A stretch of 46,877 nt of DNA from positions 1-46,877 of the forward strand of contig JAJEDY010000015.1 in the NCBI GenBank assembly GCA_022821275.1, in the 5' to 3' direction. The notes beneath the pieces are model-generated. The model searched no databases and was not told where the DNA came from. It saw only the letters and a program-made list of their open reading frames with translations. Positions 933-33,015 of this stretch are shown one piece after another (position 1 is the stretch's first letter; each line of letters opens with the position of its first letter). A program made the translations under genes and the position numbers. This DNA comes from Candidatus Latescibacterota bacterium (GTDB lineage Bacteria > Latescibacterota > UBA2968).

Positions 933-3377
<2,445 letters not shown>

Positions 3378-4387: not shown

Positions 4388-6295
4388 ATGAAACGAACCT
4401 ATCTCCTCATCCCCTTACTCCTCTGTGGTTGCCTCGCACCCGACCCGGGGCACCGTGCAAAAACAGGTGAAGCCGCACAATCCAACGCGGTGATTCACGA
4501 AACGCGCGCACCCGTACAAATCGACCCGAAAATCCTGATCAACCGCACCTTTGGGGAAGCCCCCATCCTCGCTGAAAAAGTCAAAAAAGGCGAACTCCCC
4601 CCCGTATCTGAACGCCTGCCCAAAAATCCACTCATCGTCGTCCCCATGGACACCATCGGACAATACGGCGGCGTCTTGCGGCGCGCACTCACCGGCGACA
4701 TCATCCAGACAGCGGGCGTCAATAAAACACTGAGCGAAAACCTCATGGGATTCTCGCGTCCCTTGCCCGACAGCATCGTACACAACCTCGCCGAAAGCTT
4801 TGAATTTCACGACGAAGGCCGGACCGCAATCTTCAAAATCCGCAAAGGCATCAAATGGTCAGACGGTGTACCATTTACCGTTGACGACATATTGTTCTGG
4901 TACTACGACATGACATTTGACGACAATGCCCGTCCCCACAACCAGCCCGTACCCCCCTCTGTATGGGTCGTTGATGGCAAACCCATCGACCTGAAAAAAA
5001 TCGACGACCACACCCTTGAAGTCTCATCGTCCAAACCCCTCGGTCGCGTATTACACGCCCTGTGTTTAGACGTCATAGCACAGCCCAAACACCACCTGTC
5101 GCACTTACACCCCCGCTACAATCCCGAAGCGACCTATGAAGAATTTCGAGAACAAGCCACCAATGCCATGGTCATCATGAAACCCGGCATGCCGCGCCTA
5201 TCCGCCTGGGTCCCCGTAGAATGGATTCGCGGTCAGCGCATCGTCTATGCGCGCAACCCCTACTACTGGAAAATCGACACAGCGGGCAATCAACTGCCCT
5301 ATGCGGACCGCATCGAATTTACCGTCATTCAAGACCCCCAGGTCATCCTGCTCAAATTTGTCAACGGCGAACTCGACCTGTTTGGCCGATACTCGCGCAT
5401 CAACATGTTTCCCACGCTGCGCACCGAAGAAAAAAAGGGCAAATTCAAATTGCGTATCACCGGTCCAGATCGCGGCCCCGCCTATTACCTCAACTGGGAC
5501 ACCCCAAAACCCGCCCTGCGAGAAGCCTTTCGCAACCGCGACGTGCGCATTGCCCTGTCTTATGCGATCAACCGCGAAGAAATCAACCAGATCGTCTATC
5601 ACGGCCTCCTCGACCCCGCGGGCTACTCCTTCGCCCCCTCTAACCCGCACTATTCAGAAGCGGCCTATCGCAAATACGCCAAATTCGACCCCGACAAATC
5701 CCGCGACCTCCTCGACAAAGCCGGATACCGCGACACAGACGGCGATGGTTGGCGCGAACTCAAAGATGGATCGCGTTTTGAACTCAACATCGACGTCGTT
5801 CCCGGCGTCGGCGTCGATGTCTCCGAACTCGTCTCCGAACACTGGCGCGACATCGGCATTAAAGCCAACCTGAACATATCCCTGCGCGACATCGTATGGC
5901 CCCGCCGCCTCAACGGCGAATACGACATACACCACTGGGGCCTCGAAGGACCCGCCGATCCTCTTGGCCGCCTCAACGACTGGGCAATTATGGCACCCAC
6001 CGTCCCCTTCTGGCACCGCAACGCCTCCAAAGAAGGTCCCGCGTGGTTGCACGAAGCCACAACGCGCATCAAAAAAGTATTGACAACCGTAGATCCCATA
6101 GCCGTACATGAACACATGACAAAAGTGCGCGACCTCCACACCGACAACGTACCCGTCATCGTCGTCGGCTCTGCCTACTCGATATGGGGCGCCAGCACGC
6201 GACTGGGCAATGCCCCTTTTCAGGGCAGCGCCGCCGACGTACACCGCGGCTGGGGTCGTCCCGTATTTCACGAACAGATATTTATAAAACAATAG
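4388..6295 (+). CDS. ABC transporter substrate-binding lipoprotein (peptide/nickel family 5)
   Basis: This is the extracytoplasmic solute receptor of the Dpp/Opp-type importer encoded just downstream. The N-terminus MKRTYLLIPLLLCGC is a lipoprotein signal with the acylated Cys at residue 15. SBP family 5 features include GGVLRRALTGD near the start of the mature domain, the FKIRKGIKWSDGVPFTVDDILF block, NRDVRIALSYAINREEI, and the C-terminal hinge. At 635 residues it is longer than the typical 500-550. The usual family ligands are peptides, but binding proteins of this class also take opines or oligosaccharides, so the substrate is open. The gene is 3 bp upstream of the first permease. Confidence 0.92.
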   Translation: MKRTYLLIPLLLCGCLAPDPGHRAKTGEAAQSNAVIHETRAPVQIDPKILINRTFGEAPILAEKVKKGELPPVSERLPKNPLIVVPMDTIGQYGGVLRRALTGDIIQTAGVNKTLSENLMGFSRPLPDSIVHNLAESFEFHDEGRTAIFKIRKGIKWSDGVPFTVDDILFWYYDMTFDDNARPHNQPVPPSVWVVDGKPIDLKKIDDHTLEVSSSKPLGRVLHALCLDVIAQPKHHLSHLHPRYNPEATYEEFREQATNAMVIMKPGMPRLSAWVPVEWIRGQRIVYARNPYYWKIDTAGNQLPYADRIEFTVIQDPQVILLKFVNGELDLFGRYSRINMFPTLRTEEKKGKFKLRITGPDRGPAYYLNWDTPKPALREAFRNRDVRIALSYAINREEINQIVYHGLLDPAGYSFAPSNPHYSEAAYRKYAKFDPDKSRDLLDKAGYRDTDGDGWRELKDGSRFELNIDVVPGVGVDVSELVSEHWRDIGIKANLNISLRDIVWPRRLNGEYDIHHWGLEGPADPLGRLNDWAIMAPTVPFWHRNASKEGPAWLHEATTRIKKVLTTVDPIAVHEHMTKVRDLHTDNVPVIVVGSAYSIWGASTRLGNAPFQGSAADVHRGWGRPVFHEQIFIKQ

Positions 6296-11259: not shown

Positions 11260-11265
11260 AAAATG

Positions 11266-11289
11266 GGGCGAAAAATCTTTCGCCCCTAC
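11266..11289. repeat. Palindromic repeat of the GGGCGA...TCGCCCCTAC family
   Basis: Here the core arms are GGGCGAAA and TTTCGCCC. It lies between convergent genes. Its CTA (11286-11288) is the TAG stop codon of the small lipoprotein gene on the minus strand. Confidence 0.7.
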
Positions 11290-11573
11290 TCCTGCGCCTT
11301 TGCCCTCATAATGCGCTGCACTTTATGAACCTCGCGCCACAGTACCCGGGCCTTACCCTGTGTCTCTGTCGTCACCACAATCTCTTCTTCATCTGCCCGC
11401 AGCAAAATCCCCTGAAATGTTGAGCCATCTCTGGTCTCTATCAACAGAGAATCCCCCACCGCGATCTGCTCTGGGGAATGCACCATCTCGTAATAATTAT
11501 AAGACGAGGGCGATGTGGTCTCGCAACCACAAATCCACAGACTCAACATCACAACGCTTAGCAACCTGTTCAT
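11286..11573 (-). CDS. Small putative lipoprotein with SH3/Sm-like barrel
   Basis: Ninety-five residues from the ATG at 11573, which is preceded by GAGGTG. MNRLLSVVMLSLWICGCE is a lipoprotein signal with the Cys at residue 17. The mature part (GDSLLIETRDGSTFQGILLRA followed by EEEIVVTTE) has the strand-turn pattern of a small beta barrel like those in Sm/LSM-like or YgdI-type lipoproteins. It is the last gene of the minus-strand polyamine-synthase operon. Function unknown. Confidence 0.7.
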   Translation of the reverse strand: MNRLLSVVMLSLWICGCETTSPSSYNYYEMVHSPEQIAVGDSLLIETRDGSTFQGILLRADEEEIVVTTETQGKARVLWREVHKVQRIMRAKAQE

Positions 11574-11581
11574 AATACACC

Positions 11582-12460
11582 TCACAGGGGTTCTGCTAAA
11601 AAAACCCGCCACCGATCTACAGGTCGAAATTTCTGCTTGAACTGGCGCAAACCCGATAAACCCAGATCCCCTGCGTCATTTACGAGACGATAATCGGACA
11701 ACGCGCCATAGACCCGCCACCGCAAAAAATACGACAAATCGGGCAAATCGGGATTGGTCTTTGCAACAAAAAAATGCGCCAAATCGGGCTGCATCTTTCC
11801 GCTCAGGGCAAAAGCCTCAATCTGTCCCGCAACCTCCACACACCACCCCCACAACACATCTTCTGACCAAAAATGAAACTGATCGAGCGCTGCCCGCGTA
11901 TATCCCCAGTCCAGCAAAAAGGGATGCCGACGCCCCTGACGACGACGCCAGTGTTTCAACAGCGCGAAACAATCCGGCACATCCCACGCCGTCAAAGCGC
12001 GAAAACGGAACGCATGGGCGCGCTCAAATCGCCTCACGCGCTTGCGCACATCCTTAAAACGCCGTCCTCTGATCGCAGCAATCTGCGATGGATCATAGAC
12101 GTATTCCGCGTCTTTATCGCGCAACACGAACCGTTCGGTATCTACGTATTTGGCATCACGGGCATCAAGCCACAAAATTCTCGGCAGACGACCATCCTGA
12201 CGAGATGCGAGTTTGTCGATAACCCTCTTCAGTATATCAGCATCACAGGGAACGGGCGGCAGCAGCAAATCAACACCTTCTGGACGCTGTACTAACAGAC
12301 ACGTACTCCCCGCAATTTCATCGACGCACACAATCCGATTGGGTGCGAGACTAAAAGCAGAGAGAAAAGGCGGAAAATAACACCAGGCCCGTTTGTTTGC
12401 CCGCAAAAACACATCGCGCAAATACGCGCCATACGAGGGATCAATGGGATGCCCGATCAC
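11582..12460 (-). CDS. DUF2156 / LPG-synthase C-terminal domain protein
   Basis: The protein has a double GNAT-like fold as in the catalytic domain of phosphatidylglycerol lysyltransferase (MprF) and FemAB-like enzymes. Supporting features are a central KDVRKRVRRFERAH basic helix, the RRQGRRHPFLLDW stretch, and the C-terminal signature NDAGDLGLSGLRQFKQKF. It has 292 residues and no membrane domain, so it is the soluble catalytic module only. The family transfers aminoacyl or acyl groups to lipids or small amines, but the donor and acceptor here are unknown. Its start overlaps the 3' end of the BpsA gene by 20 bp, implying coupled translation and a shared pathway. Confidence 0.75.
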   Translation of the reverse strand: MIGHPIDPSYGAYLRDVFLRANKRAWCYFPPFLSAFSLAPNRIVCVDEIAGSTCLLVQRPEGVDLLLPPVPCDADILKRVIDKLASRQDGRLPRILWLDARDAKYVDTERFVLRDKDAEYVYDPSQIAAIRGRRFKDVRKRVRRFERAHAFRFRALTAWDVPDCFALLKHWRRRQGRRHPFLLDWGYTRAALDQFHFWSEDVLWGWCVEVAGQIEAFALSGKMQPDLAHFFVAKTNPDLPDLSYFLRWRVYGALSDYRLVNDAGDLGLSGLRQFKQKFRPVDRWRVFLAEPL

Positions 12461-13454
12461 CTTGTCGCCGCCTTTTGTAATCAGCCGTGTACAATGCCCC
12501 GCGATATGTGCCCGTCACAAGAGGCTGTGGCTTCCCGGTAGAAATAAGACGCATCATCTGACTGACCCCACCCAATACCTGGGCACCGACATATTCATTA
12601 AAATCCGGTATGATTTCCACAGGTGCAAAACCCATCTCGATCAATGAGCCAATCGCCCGCGCTGTCTCATCTGGCGAACGACGGCCAAAACTCACAAAAC
12701 CCTGCTTGCCCACCTCGGGCACCAGCGCAGAGGCCCCGCGCGAAACAAAAAGCGACAAACCGGACAACGTGTAGGGTGGATCGGTAAAAAACACATCCAT
12801 TTGTCCGCGCAGATCAGACGGAATACCTTCGCGCAAATCGCGTGCAATCACAGTGATGGGCAACTCTTCGCGCTCACTGATCACACCGAGAAAATCAACG
12901 AGCCGCTCATCGCACTCTATCACCACCACCTGCCCGAGAACAATCTCCAGATGCTGCGCCAGCAACCCCACTGCCACCGACGTCAGATCATCGTCCCCCA
13001 GAACGAGCAAATTGCGTCCTTCGAGAGCATCGTGTTCGTACAAATACACGGCACGCCTTAAAACGGTTTCTGGCGTTGCATGGGACTGATCCAGTTTGAC
13101 ATCGACCCCTGGCCGCCTCTCAACAATATCTGCAAGGCGTCTGCATACATCTTTCAAAACCACAGGTATAGGGGGCACGCCCGGGCGTACAAAGCGTTTG
13201 CGACACGAAATCCCCAACACCGATTGCACAACACGCAAGCCTTCACCAGTGAGCGAAACCCCACCTTTTCGCGTCAAAACACCTATCTTTTCCAATTCAC
13301 CCCGCACAGCAGCAACCACGGGAACGGGCAAACCCACCTCCTGAGCGACATTGCGAATGGGAATCTGCTCGGCCATAAAAACCGTTCGCAGAATACGACG
13401 CACGCCCTCGGCACCTTCGGCCAGTCGCGCCCGGGTTGCCACCTCGCGCAGCAA
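12441..13454 (-). CDS. bpsA: N4-bis(aminopropyl)spermidine synthase (branched-polyamine synthase, DUF43)
   Basis: Family members add two aminopropyl groups from decarboxylated S-adenosylmethionine to spermidine, giving quaternary branched polyamines. Residues about 15-80 form a winged-helix domain. The Rossmann-like catalytic domain has the family-defining GDDDLTS (residues 153-159) and TDPPYT (about 224-229), plus ATPET and a PDFNEYVGAQVLGG segment near the C-terminus. The frame begins with TTG at 13454 and no convincing ribosome site is seen; an internal start (for example Met27) would cut into the winged helix. It lies 19 bp after the membrane protein gene and overlaps the DUF2156 gene by 20 bp. 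Confidence 0.85.
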   Translation of the reverse strand: MLREVATRARLAEGAEGVRRILRTVFMAEQIPIRNVAQEVGLPVPVVAAVRGELEKIGVLTRKGGVSLTGEGLRVVQSVLGISCRKRFVRPGVPPIPVVLKDVCRRLADIVERRPGVDVKLDQSHATPETVLRRAVYLYEHDALEGRNLLVLGDDDLTSVAVGLLAQHLEIVLGQVVVIECDERLVDFLGVISEREELPITVIARDLREGIPSDLRGQMDVFFTDPPYTLSGLSLFVSRGASALVPEVGKQGFVSFGRRSPDETARAIGSLIEMGFAPVEIIPDFNEYVGAQVLGGVSQMMRLISTGKPQPLVTGTYRGALYTADYKRRRQGDRASH

Positions 13455-13473
13455 TTCAGCGGAAAAATTTGAC

Positions 13474-14562
13474 CTAGGCCGTCTCGGAATCCGTGTTATC
13501 GCTGGCCTCCTCGCTCACAACCTCGAGATCATCATCCCGATCAAGCAAATTTTCATCGTCCTTGCGATGTCTTAAAACCACATACATCAAACTCAGTCCC
13601 GACGCGTATGTCGCCTGGACATAAGCAACCACAACCCCCGTAATTACAATAAGCATCACCCCGAGAATACCACCACCCCAGACCTCTGATCCCGCCGGTG
13701 TCCCCGGCACGGGCAAACTCGCAAACAAATCATCCCATTTCTCTGGCACAAATAAGAGATAATGCGAAGCCACGTAAAAAAGATTGGCCAGTTTAACACC
13801 CATAAACCAACCACACGCCCAGGCAACCAGACCAATCGCAGCCATGGTTAGAGCACCCAGCACCATCAAACTAACCCACACCGCAAAAATCATCCACGCC
13901 GCATACAAAACCAATCGCCAGGGCTGTGACCACGTCAGTGAAAACGACTGTATCACAACATCTAAAATATCAACCCCCTCTGTACCCACAATAGCTGGCG
14001 ACATAATCACCGCAACGACAAATACCAAACCGATAAACACGGCCAACAATGCCGCAAAAAAGATGGGAATAAAACACAGCGCAAAAACGATCTCACCTGC
14101 TACTGGGATCCAGCTAACAACCCACCCAATAACAACGCCGCCAATCACAAAAAGGGCAAACAGAGCGAGCACGGCAACGGGGCCAAACAACACAGTTTTC
14201 CAGCACCCTCTTGCAAATCGGCAGGCATCGCCAACCGAATAAAAATCATCACCCCTAAGCTGCTGAAAAGTGATCTTGCACATCATACTGGTCGTCACAA
14301 ACACCACCGACAGGGCAAACACCATACCCAAAACGTGCAACCCCGTACCGAGCAGATCAAATTCACCGAGTGTTGCGCCGGGAAATAAACCATAGCGCTG
14401 CCACAGACCCGCACTGCCCGCACGCATATGCGCGACAAGTAAAAAAACCGAATACCCCGCCCAGGCCACAATCAATCCCAACAGCCCAGCCCAAATTTTT
14501 TTTCCAGACCAACCCAATCGCACACAGCGAAAAATATCTCGAATATCAAAATGCAGATTCAT
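13474..14562 (-). CDS. Polytopic membrane protein with acidic C-terminal tail
   Basis: I do not recognise a named family. The 362 residues contain about seven hydrophobic segments: near residues 24-45, 78-98, 125-150, 155-190, 220-265 and 300-325, some of them long enough for two helices. Between segments are amphipathic loops with FARGCWKTVLFG. The last 30 residues are cytosolic-looking and highly acidic (RKDDENLLDRDDDLEVV). Architecture and composition resemble uncharacterised multi-pass proteins of the DUF975/glycerophosphoryl-diester-phosphodiesterase membrane-domain kind. It starts 8 bp after the upstream secreted protein gene, in the same operon. Confidence 0.7.
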   Translation of the reverse strand: MNLHFDIRDIFRCVRLGWSGKKIWAGLLGLIVAWAGYSVFLLVAHMRAGSAGLWQRYGLFPGATLGEFDLLGTGLHVLGMVFALSVVFVTTSMMCKITFQQLRGDDFYSVGDACRFARGCWKTVLFGPVAVLALFALFVIGGVVIGWVVSWIPVAGEIVFALCFIPIFFAALLAVFIGLVFVVAVIMSPAIVGTEGVDILDVVIQSFSLTWSQPWRLVLYAAWMIFAVWVSLMVLGALTMAAIGLVAWACGWFMGVKLANLFYVASHYLLFVPEKWDDLFASLPVPGTPAGSEVWGGGILGVMLIVITGVVVAYVQATYASGLSLMYVVLRHRKDDENLLDRDDDLEVVSEEASDNTDSETA

Positions 14563-14570
14563 ATTACCCC

Positions 14571-15137
14571 TTACTGCTCAGATGGTTCTTCCCGCTCATT
14601 CACATTGAGCACCTCTCGAACCGCAGTCAAAAAATCGTCCAATGCCATGTGCGATTCTTGCGCTTGCGCGGGCTTGCTGCGCACACCCGGAGGCAAAGGC
14701 ACATGTCTGAGCCTGACCTGACGATTCTCACCTTCGCCCACCTGTACTGTATAACACCCCTGTCCCAATCCCATCGGCCATGGAGACCCATGATTGTCGC
14801 GCTTCGAAAGAAACAGCACGGTTTCTTGTCCCACCACAAACTGCGGCATACCTGGCACATACATCTGTTGCCCTTCCCATTTGCCGCCAGGCAAAGTCAG
14901 CACCATTTCCGAATTGGCCTGCCCTTTGACCACCGCCATCACTCTAAACCGCGTTTGGGTAAAAATACCCTCCCGATCGGCAAAAACTGCATTATCGCGC
15001 GCGAGACATTTAACGTGTACAATAGTCTGCGCGGTCTCGCACATCTCTTCAAAGACAAACGTCTTCACAGTTGTCGCCCAGGCAGGTGTCCACCCCATAG
15101 CCATCAGCATCAAACCTGCAAACAATCGTTTATACAT
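14571..15137 (-). CDS. Secreted protein of unknown function
   Basis: The ATG at 15137 is preceded by an excellent ribosome site, AGGAGGTGGGAGA; the longer frame to 15179 uses TTG and is unlikely. MYKRLFAGLMLMAMGWTPAWA is a signal peptide. The mature part of about 167 residues has a strand-rich first half (FRVMAVVKG...EMVLTLPGG...VLFLSKRD) and resembles secreted proteins with a 'V.G.....LP.G' beta-domain, but I assign no family. It is the first gene of the five-gene polyamine-synthase operon. Confidence 0.72.
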   Translation of the reverse strand: MYKRLFAGLMLMAMGWTPAWATTVKTFVFEEMCETAQTIVHVKCLARDNAVFADREGIFTQTRFRVMAVVKGQANSEMVLTLPGGKWEGQQMYVPGMPQFVVGQETVLFLSKRDNHGSPWPMGLGQGCYTVQVGEGENRQVRLRHVPLPPGVRSKPAQAQESHMALDDFLTAVREVLNVNEREEPSEQ

Positions 15138-29144: not shown

Positions 29145-29222
29145 GGGCGAGGCATGCCTCGCCCCTACACATCTGCGCCATCTGCGGATTCCAACGGCGG
29201 GCGAAAAATTTTTCGCCCCTAC
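29145..29222. repeat. Two palindromic repeats of the GGGCGA...TCGCCCCTAC family
   Basis: Units at 29145-29168 (identical to 210-233) and 29199-29222 (core GGGCGAAAAA / TTTTTCGCCC). The first is preceded by gcgatgac, again joined to the tail of the other repeat family. They lie between the SDR gene and the CoA-transferase operon. Confidence 0.75.
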
Positions 29223-32989: not shown

Positions 32990-33015
32990 GGGCGACCACG
33001 GGGGGTCGCCCCTAC
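32990..33015. repeat. Palindromic repeat GGGCGACC...GGTCGCCCCTAC
   Basis: This unit has arms GGGCGACC and GGTCGCCC and lies between the helicase and ClpP genes. Confidence 0.65.

Follow-up and report, generated by a model that had tools for sequence, protein, structure and literature searches.

Conserved pairing of a BpsA-family protein with a stand-alone DUF2156 transferase in Latescibacterota genomes

We analysed a stretch of 46,877 nucleotides (the window), which is the entire contig C62 of a 5.66-Mb Candidatus Latescibacterota genome. It carries a run of five minus-strand genes, preceded on the same strand by rlmN, murA and a gene for a CCA-adding enzyme or poly(A) polymerase, with the following features:

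14571-15137, minus strand: secreted-protein gene (ATG start; listed open reading frame from 15179; signal peptide-like N-terminus)
13474-14562, minus strand: membrane-protein gene (polytopic, 362 aa; no known family)
12441-13454, minus strand: bpsA-family gene (TTG start, 337 aa; aminopropyltransferase candidate)
11582-12460, minus strand: DUF2156 / LPG_synthase_C gene (GTG start, 292 aa; predicted stand-alone tandem-GNAT transferase)
11286-11573, minus strand: small lipoprotein-like gene (ATG start; open reading frame from 11612; weak SH3/RimP-C-like similarity)
11265-11286, minus strand: GC-rich hairpin, then a T-run, closing the gene run at its 3' end
224-233, 11280-11289, 29159-29168, 29213-29222 and 33006-33015, minus strand: copies of GTAGGGGCGA

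The open reading frame coordinates confirm the five-gene run described in the initial annotation and agree with its spacing of 19 bp or less or overlap, the successive gaps from the secreted-protein gene through the membrane-protein, bpsA and DUF2156 genes to the lipoprotein-like gene being 8, 19, -20 and about 8 bp. The 20-bp overlap between bpsA and the DUF2156 gene is also present in the window. In several sister genomes, however, bpsA ends 21 bp sooner, which leaves 1 bp between it and the DUF2156 gene, and for this reason we dropped the overlap as evidence of coupling. Purifying selection acts on BpsA, the DUF2156 protein and the membrane protein (dN/dS about 0.12-0.20), which indicates that these three genes are real. 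The hairpin at the end of the run has a counterpart in some of the sister genomes but not in others; it may act as a terminator or belong to an interspersed repeat. Scans for promoters and terminators gave results at or near chance level overall. The sequence GTAGGGGCGA is the start of a hairpin-forming interspersed repeat, with five copies in the window, all on the minus strand, against 0.05 expected; the repeat copy spanning 11265-11289 sits where the gene run ends and looks like a terminator. One close relative (L032) is filed under Gemmatimonadota and the other close relatives are Latescibacterota MAGs, apparently a difference in naming.

The association of bpsA with the DUF2156 gene was surveyed in 61 Latescibacterota genomes, 23 with a BpsA of the window type and 38 without. 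All 23 carriers have exactly one PF09924 gene, which always adjoins bpsA; of the 38 other genomes only two (G039 and G048) have any such gene. The Fisher p value for this contrast, 8e-15, ignores kinship and so overstates the case. Indeed, the carriers represent four families of one phylum, and because every linked DUF2156 case falls within that phylum they are not independent and amount to few independent observations. Co-occurrence in other genomes had been named in the initial annotation as a check on the proposed partnership; it is seen throughout the carriers, and a lack of co-occurrence did not arise. Moreover, G014, from the same family as the window genome, has neither gene. Twenty genomes of the same class keep the order membrane protein-bpsA-DUF2156, even where identity has fallen to 44-48% (in one of these, G001, a contig end falls inside the membrane gene). 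In G049 and G053, which belong to a different family of the phylum, bpsA and the DUF2156 gene have stayed together despite the loss of the membrane, secreted, cca and murA genes beside them; in family f7 the pair persists without these four neighbours. Since it outlasts the loss of its other neighbours, we consider the bpsA/DUF2156 pair to be the stable core of the locus. The secreted-protein gene lies upstream in most f1 and f2 genomes and is not seen in G011, G012, G021 or f7, and the lipoprotein-like gene is recognisable mainly within the genus; both are peripheral and form no stable part of the unit. The membrane gene is kept beside bpsA across the class, as judged from synteny and an alignment of seven homologues. 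Its product matches no Pfam or NCBIfam family even at an E-value of 0.5, and the secreted protein matches no Pfam family. The envelope destination previously proposed for the pathway product has this neighbouring membrane gene as its only basis.

The product of the bpsA-family gene matches PF01861 (BpsA_C) at 1.4e-44, with 152.6 bits against a curated cut-off of 27, and its closest solved structures are 2qm3 (Pyrococcus), 5xnc (Thermococcus BpsA) and 6j27 (Thermus BpsA). An AlphaFold model of the protein (pLDDT 85) gives the same ranking of structural relatives; whole-chain TM-scores against them are 0.55-0.57, with large rmsd, an outcome that we ascribe to a different relative orientation of the two domains in the model. 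The following elements are recognised in the protein:

N-terminal part: winged-helix-like
residues 153-156: GDDD
residues 224-229: TDPPYT
residues 286-288: NEY
residues 321-325: LYTAD

In the Thermococcus enzyme, Asp225, Glu259, Tyr290 and Tyr316 are acceptor-site residues, with Glu259 and Tyr316 helping to activate spermidine, and an acidic C-terminal cluster carries the aminopropyl group (PMC12979288); in the T. kodakarensis (Tk) numbering this cluster comprises Glu339 and Asp342-Glu345. Among window-type sequences the GDDD motif (G153 D154 D155 D156, corresponding to Tk Asp158-160) is invariant, as are the equivalents of Asp225 (in TDPP) and Tyr290 (the NEY tyrosine). The other two acceptor-site residues are absent: the position of Glu259 is a variable Ser, Thr or Pro (S260 in the window protein), and a shorter segment takes the place of the one bearing Tyr316, a residue placed via canonical proxies. 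At the C-terminus, window-type proteins have LYTAD or LYTxE where a canonical relative has LYYDEE, and the single acid of LYTx[D/E] is constant among the window-type sequences listed. Taken with the published residue roles, the alignment suggests a conserved donor side of the active site, a carrier of which a single candidate residue is left, and an altered acceptor side.

Compared with the characterised BpsA enzymes (EC 2.5.1.128; 5xnc and 5xnh from T. kodakarensis, 6j27 from Thermus thermophilus), the window protein therefore shares PF01861, the winged-helix and catalytic domains, GDDD, the Asp225 and Tyr290 equivalents and an acid near the C-terminus, but is only about 26% identical to them, lacks the Glu259 and Tyr316 equivalents, has TDPPY in place of TDPPE or TDP[VS], and has the one LYTx[D/E] acid instead of an acidic cluster. 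Its gene is also tied to DUF2156, and in relatives to speD, unlike that of canonical BpsA. In a phylogenetic tree that uses L084, L066, L068 and L069 as canonical proxies in place of experimentally characterised BpsA sequences, the window type groups neither with the canonical-type clade formed by L084 and family f8 (support 100/99) nor with a third clade, whose members have GDHD and are without the C-terminal acid. Judged by sequence, the window BpsA is not of the characterised thermophile type and is its own branch of the family. The bpsA/DUF2156 pairing is stronger than the initial annotation could know. The product named there, N4-bis(aminopropyl)spermidine, is doubtful, since the window protein sits on this separate branch, is missing two residues of the acceptor site and has kept little of the acidic cluster at its C-terminus. 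In the GDHD-type paralogues GDDD is without its middle Asp and the C-terminal acid has been lost as well, as would be expected if these two elements cooperate. Members of this third branch (L064, L065, L067 and L079 from Nonomuraea), with predicted proteins of 548-579 aa in open frames of up to 607 aa, have IYT[HQ]G at the domain end and an extra C-terminal part fused, and speD is not nearby. A C-terminal CxxC...CxxC extension resembling a zinc ribbon follows LYTx[D/E] in L041, L062 and L078 and is absent in the window's class.

The genomic context of relatives bears on the aminopropyl donor. In Pseudogracilibacillus auburnensis (L041) speD directly follows bpsA, and in G049 (L062), from another Latescibacterota family, the genes run bpsA-speD-DUF2156 with 4-bp overlaps at both junctions. 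Moreover, a human-gut contig (L078; MT839461.1, positions 1606-3273) encodes a BpsA-SpeD fusion in a single frame of 555 aa; the record is labelled as an unverified bacteriophage and may be bacterial. The arrangement recalls SpeD-SpeE modules, in which decarboxylase and aminopropyltransferase adjoin or are fused, except that in these relatives the aminopropyltransferase candidate comes from the BpsA family rather than SpeE and a third, transferase gene is added. Each of ten genomes tested has one SpeD, which is the bpsA-linked copy in G049 and in Pseudogracilibacillus (G060), and SpeE (PF01564) was found in neither of these two genomes. With the linked SpeD as sole copy and no SpeE, no enzyme other than the BpsA relative is visible as a user of decarboxylated SAM (dcSAM) in either. 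In the window's class, G021 has SpeD and only a marginal SpeE match. The window genome itself encodes SpeD on contig C95 and, on C97, a membrane-fused SpeE of the PRK03612 type that exceeds the curated cut-off for this type, so the operon is without its own donor supply. We consider the use of dcSAM as donor to be well supported by context. A search of the window genome for a PF02784-type ornithine/arginine decarboxylase gave one LysA-like protein as the sole match. In G014, the one member of the window's family without bpsA and the DUF2156 gene, SpeD and SpeE matches appear to lie in a single 446-aa open frame (C141:5908-6984), apparently a SpeD-SpeE fusion.

The DUF2156 protein, encoded by a single-copy gene in the window genome, matches PF09924 (LPG_synthase_C) at 4.4e-16, with 59.3 bits against a curated cut-off of 27.5. 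Its AlphaFold model (pLDDT 76) matches, in order, 2hqy, the synthase domains of MprF (4v36 and 4v34), FemX, and the tRNA-dependent ligases Sbb17 and Sba18, structures of which include an amine-bearing antibiotic precursor; CoA-dependent GNATs score more weakly, and apart from 2hqy the matches ahead of them are tRNA-dependent aminoacyl transferases. The protein shares the tandem-GNAT fold and PF09924 with 2hqy and the C-terminal domain of MprF/LPG synthase, but differs from MprF in being a soluble stand-alone protein of 292 aa that lacks the N-terminal multi-TM flippase part and is encoded next to an aminopropyltransferase candidate. FemX and the streptothricin-type ligases (Sbb17, 9wqx) belong to the same fold class at 12-14% identity, and show no operon similarity. 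Members of the DUF2156 family use aminoacyl-tRNA as the source of amino acids that they move onto glycerolipids or sterols (PMC9437257). Together, the fold neighbours and the family chemistry make transfer of an amino acid onto a polyamine by the DUF2156 protein a reasonable inference, with acyl transfer from CoA as an alternative that the protein may follow.

These observations lead us to a reading in which an aminopropyltransferase, from a subfamily of its own within the BpsA family, produces a polyamine for the DUF2156 enzyme to aminoacylate or acylate, a proposal for which we judge the chances to be evenly balanced. It builds on computed results, namely family membership, motif conservation, the DUF2156 pairing, the speD linkage and the lack of any other detectable aminopropyltransferase in two relatives. 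What we infer is donor use in vivo, which residue serves as relay, which amine is accepted, what is made from it, what the DUF2156 enzyme acts on and what the membrane protein does. The core unit would be membrane protein-bpsA-DUF2156. The BpsA relative would take the aminopropyl group from dcSAM held by GDDD, probably relay it via the conserved acid of the C-terminal LYTx[D/E], and put it onto an amine acceptor, which may be spermidine or else a di- or polyamine of shorter chain. The BpsA product would next receive an amino acid, with aminoacyl-tRNA as its source, or an acyl group through the DUF2156 enzyme, and the membrane protein may place or move that product at the membrane. Several findings count against this reading: the Glu259 and Tyr316 equivalents are not conserved, the DDEE cluster is down to one acid, TDPPYT resembles the DPPY of SAM-dependent amino-methyltransferases, relatives show weak N6-adenine methylase similarity, the window operon has no donor supply of its own, the linked DUF2156 cases all belong to one phylum, DUF2156 genes also occur without bpsA, and the pair is not universal, the Pseudogracilibacillus relative having speD and no DUF2156 anywhere in its genome. 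A bolder version, which we put forward only tentatively, would make this BpsA branch of mesophiles the genome's only aminopropyltransferase, replacing SpeE, in Pseudogracilibacillus and G049, with the Latescibacterota product aminoacylated by a dedicated DUF2156 enzyme; if true, aminoacyl-polyamines would form a class that we did not find described in the literature searched.

The locus may instead represent the canonical function in an unusual host, with N4-aminopropyl- and N4-bis(aminopropyl)spermidine made from spermidine and the DUF2156 protein either modifying this product or unrelated to it. The common fold, GDDD and TDPP are consistent with this, and spermidine could be present in the window genome because of its SpeD and PRK03612-type SpeE. 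We nevertheless regard it as unlikely, because the window type branches apart from canonical-type enzymes, the Glu259 and Tyr316 positions have diverged, the carrier cluster is reduced, and relatives that are without SpeE would need to import spermidine. Less probable is that bpsA and the DUF2156 gene serve separate processes and are merely carried along together in a stable neighbourhood: murA, cca and rlmN are likewise conserved within the genus and order, but f7 and f3 have lost such neighbours and kept the pair, and the single-copy DUF2156 gene tracks bpsA across the 61 genomes, with G014 having neither. Lowest of all we place the idea that SAM-dependent amino-methyl transfer, or some other non-aminopropyl chemistry, is the activity of the BpsA relative, with DUF2156 acting in another pathway such as lipid aminoacylation. 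It is kept in consideration because TDPPYT looks DPPY-like, and it draws further on weak PF10237 (N6-adenine methylase) similarity in relatives and on the deposition of 2qm3 as a predicted methyltransferase. Methylation, however, leaves the linkage to SpeD unexplained, with its adjacency, its fusion and the absence of another detectable dcSAM user in two genomes, and GDDD and the C-terminal acid are retained.

The remark in the initial annotation that a BpsA-family enzyme resides in an apparently mesophilic bacterium is borne out in so far as the genomes do not look thermophilic: IVYWREL of the encoded proteins is 0.39-0.42 in genomes with the window type compared to 0.45 in canonical-BpsA genomes of the same phylum, a crude, composition-based estimate of growth temperature that serves as a contrast between genomes of this phylum only. 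Pseudogracilibacillus auburnensis is a mesophilic soil isolate. Three members of family f8 in the same phylum (L066, L068 and L069) have a canonical-type BpsA with a DEE C-terminus, which in L066 is encoded near speE and agmatinase genes. The composition of f8 suggests thermophiles, so both BpsA types would occur within one phylum. In Bacillales, only three of 299 genomes have a match above the cut-off. One match is L041, another is a canonical type beside speE, and the third (L136 in G137, at about 5000-5870) is a decayed window-type bpsA, frameshifted, with a zinc-ribbon end and no adjoining speD. A scan of a genome-contig collection recovered close relatives and Pseudogracilibacillus only. 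Viral contigs gave no relatives with the BpsA alignment, the DUF2156 alignment or L041, and only a SpeD-type match with L078. A plasmid scan found relatives in Nonomuraea, Agrobacterium and Microvirga, none with the bpsA/DUF2156 pair. Proteins of mesophiles have already been assigned to the BpsA family by automatic annotation, one of them on an Agrobacterium plasmid, although that protein is very distant (27%) and the motifs are absent. Its gene (L077; NZ_CP092894.1, 1931-7424) lies beside AAA ATPase, helicase and ATP-binding genes in a row that might be a defence-like cluster.

The pairing suggests that non-thermophiles have an unstudied pathway for modifying polyamines. A separate, SpeD-tied branch of BpsA in apparently non-thermophilic genomes would extend the known range of aminopropyl chemistry and of BpsA roles, and the poorly understood stand-alone DUF2156 proteins would gain a candidate class of substrates. 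Since Pseudogracilibacillus auburnensis DSM 28556 is an isolate, part of the proposal is directly testable.
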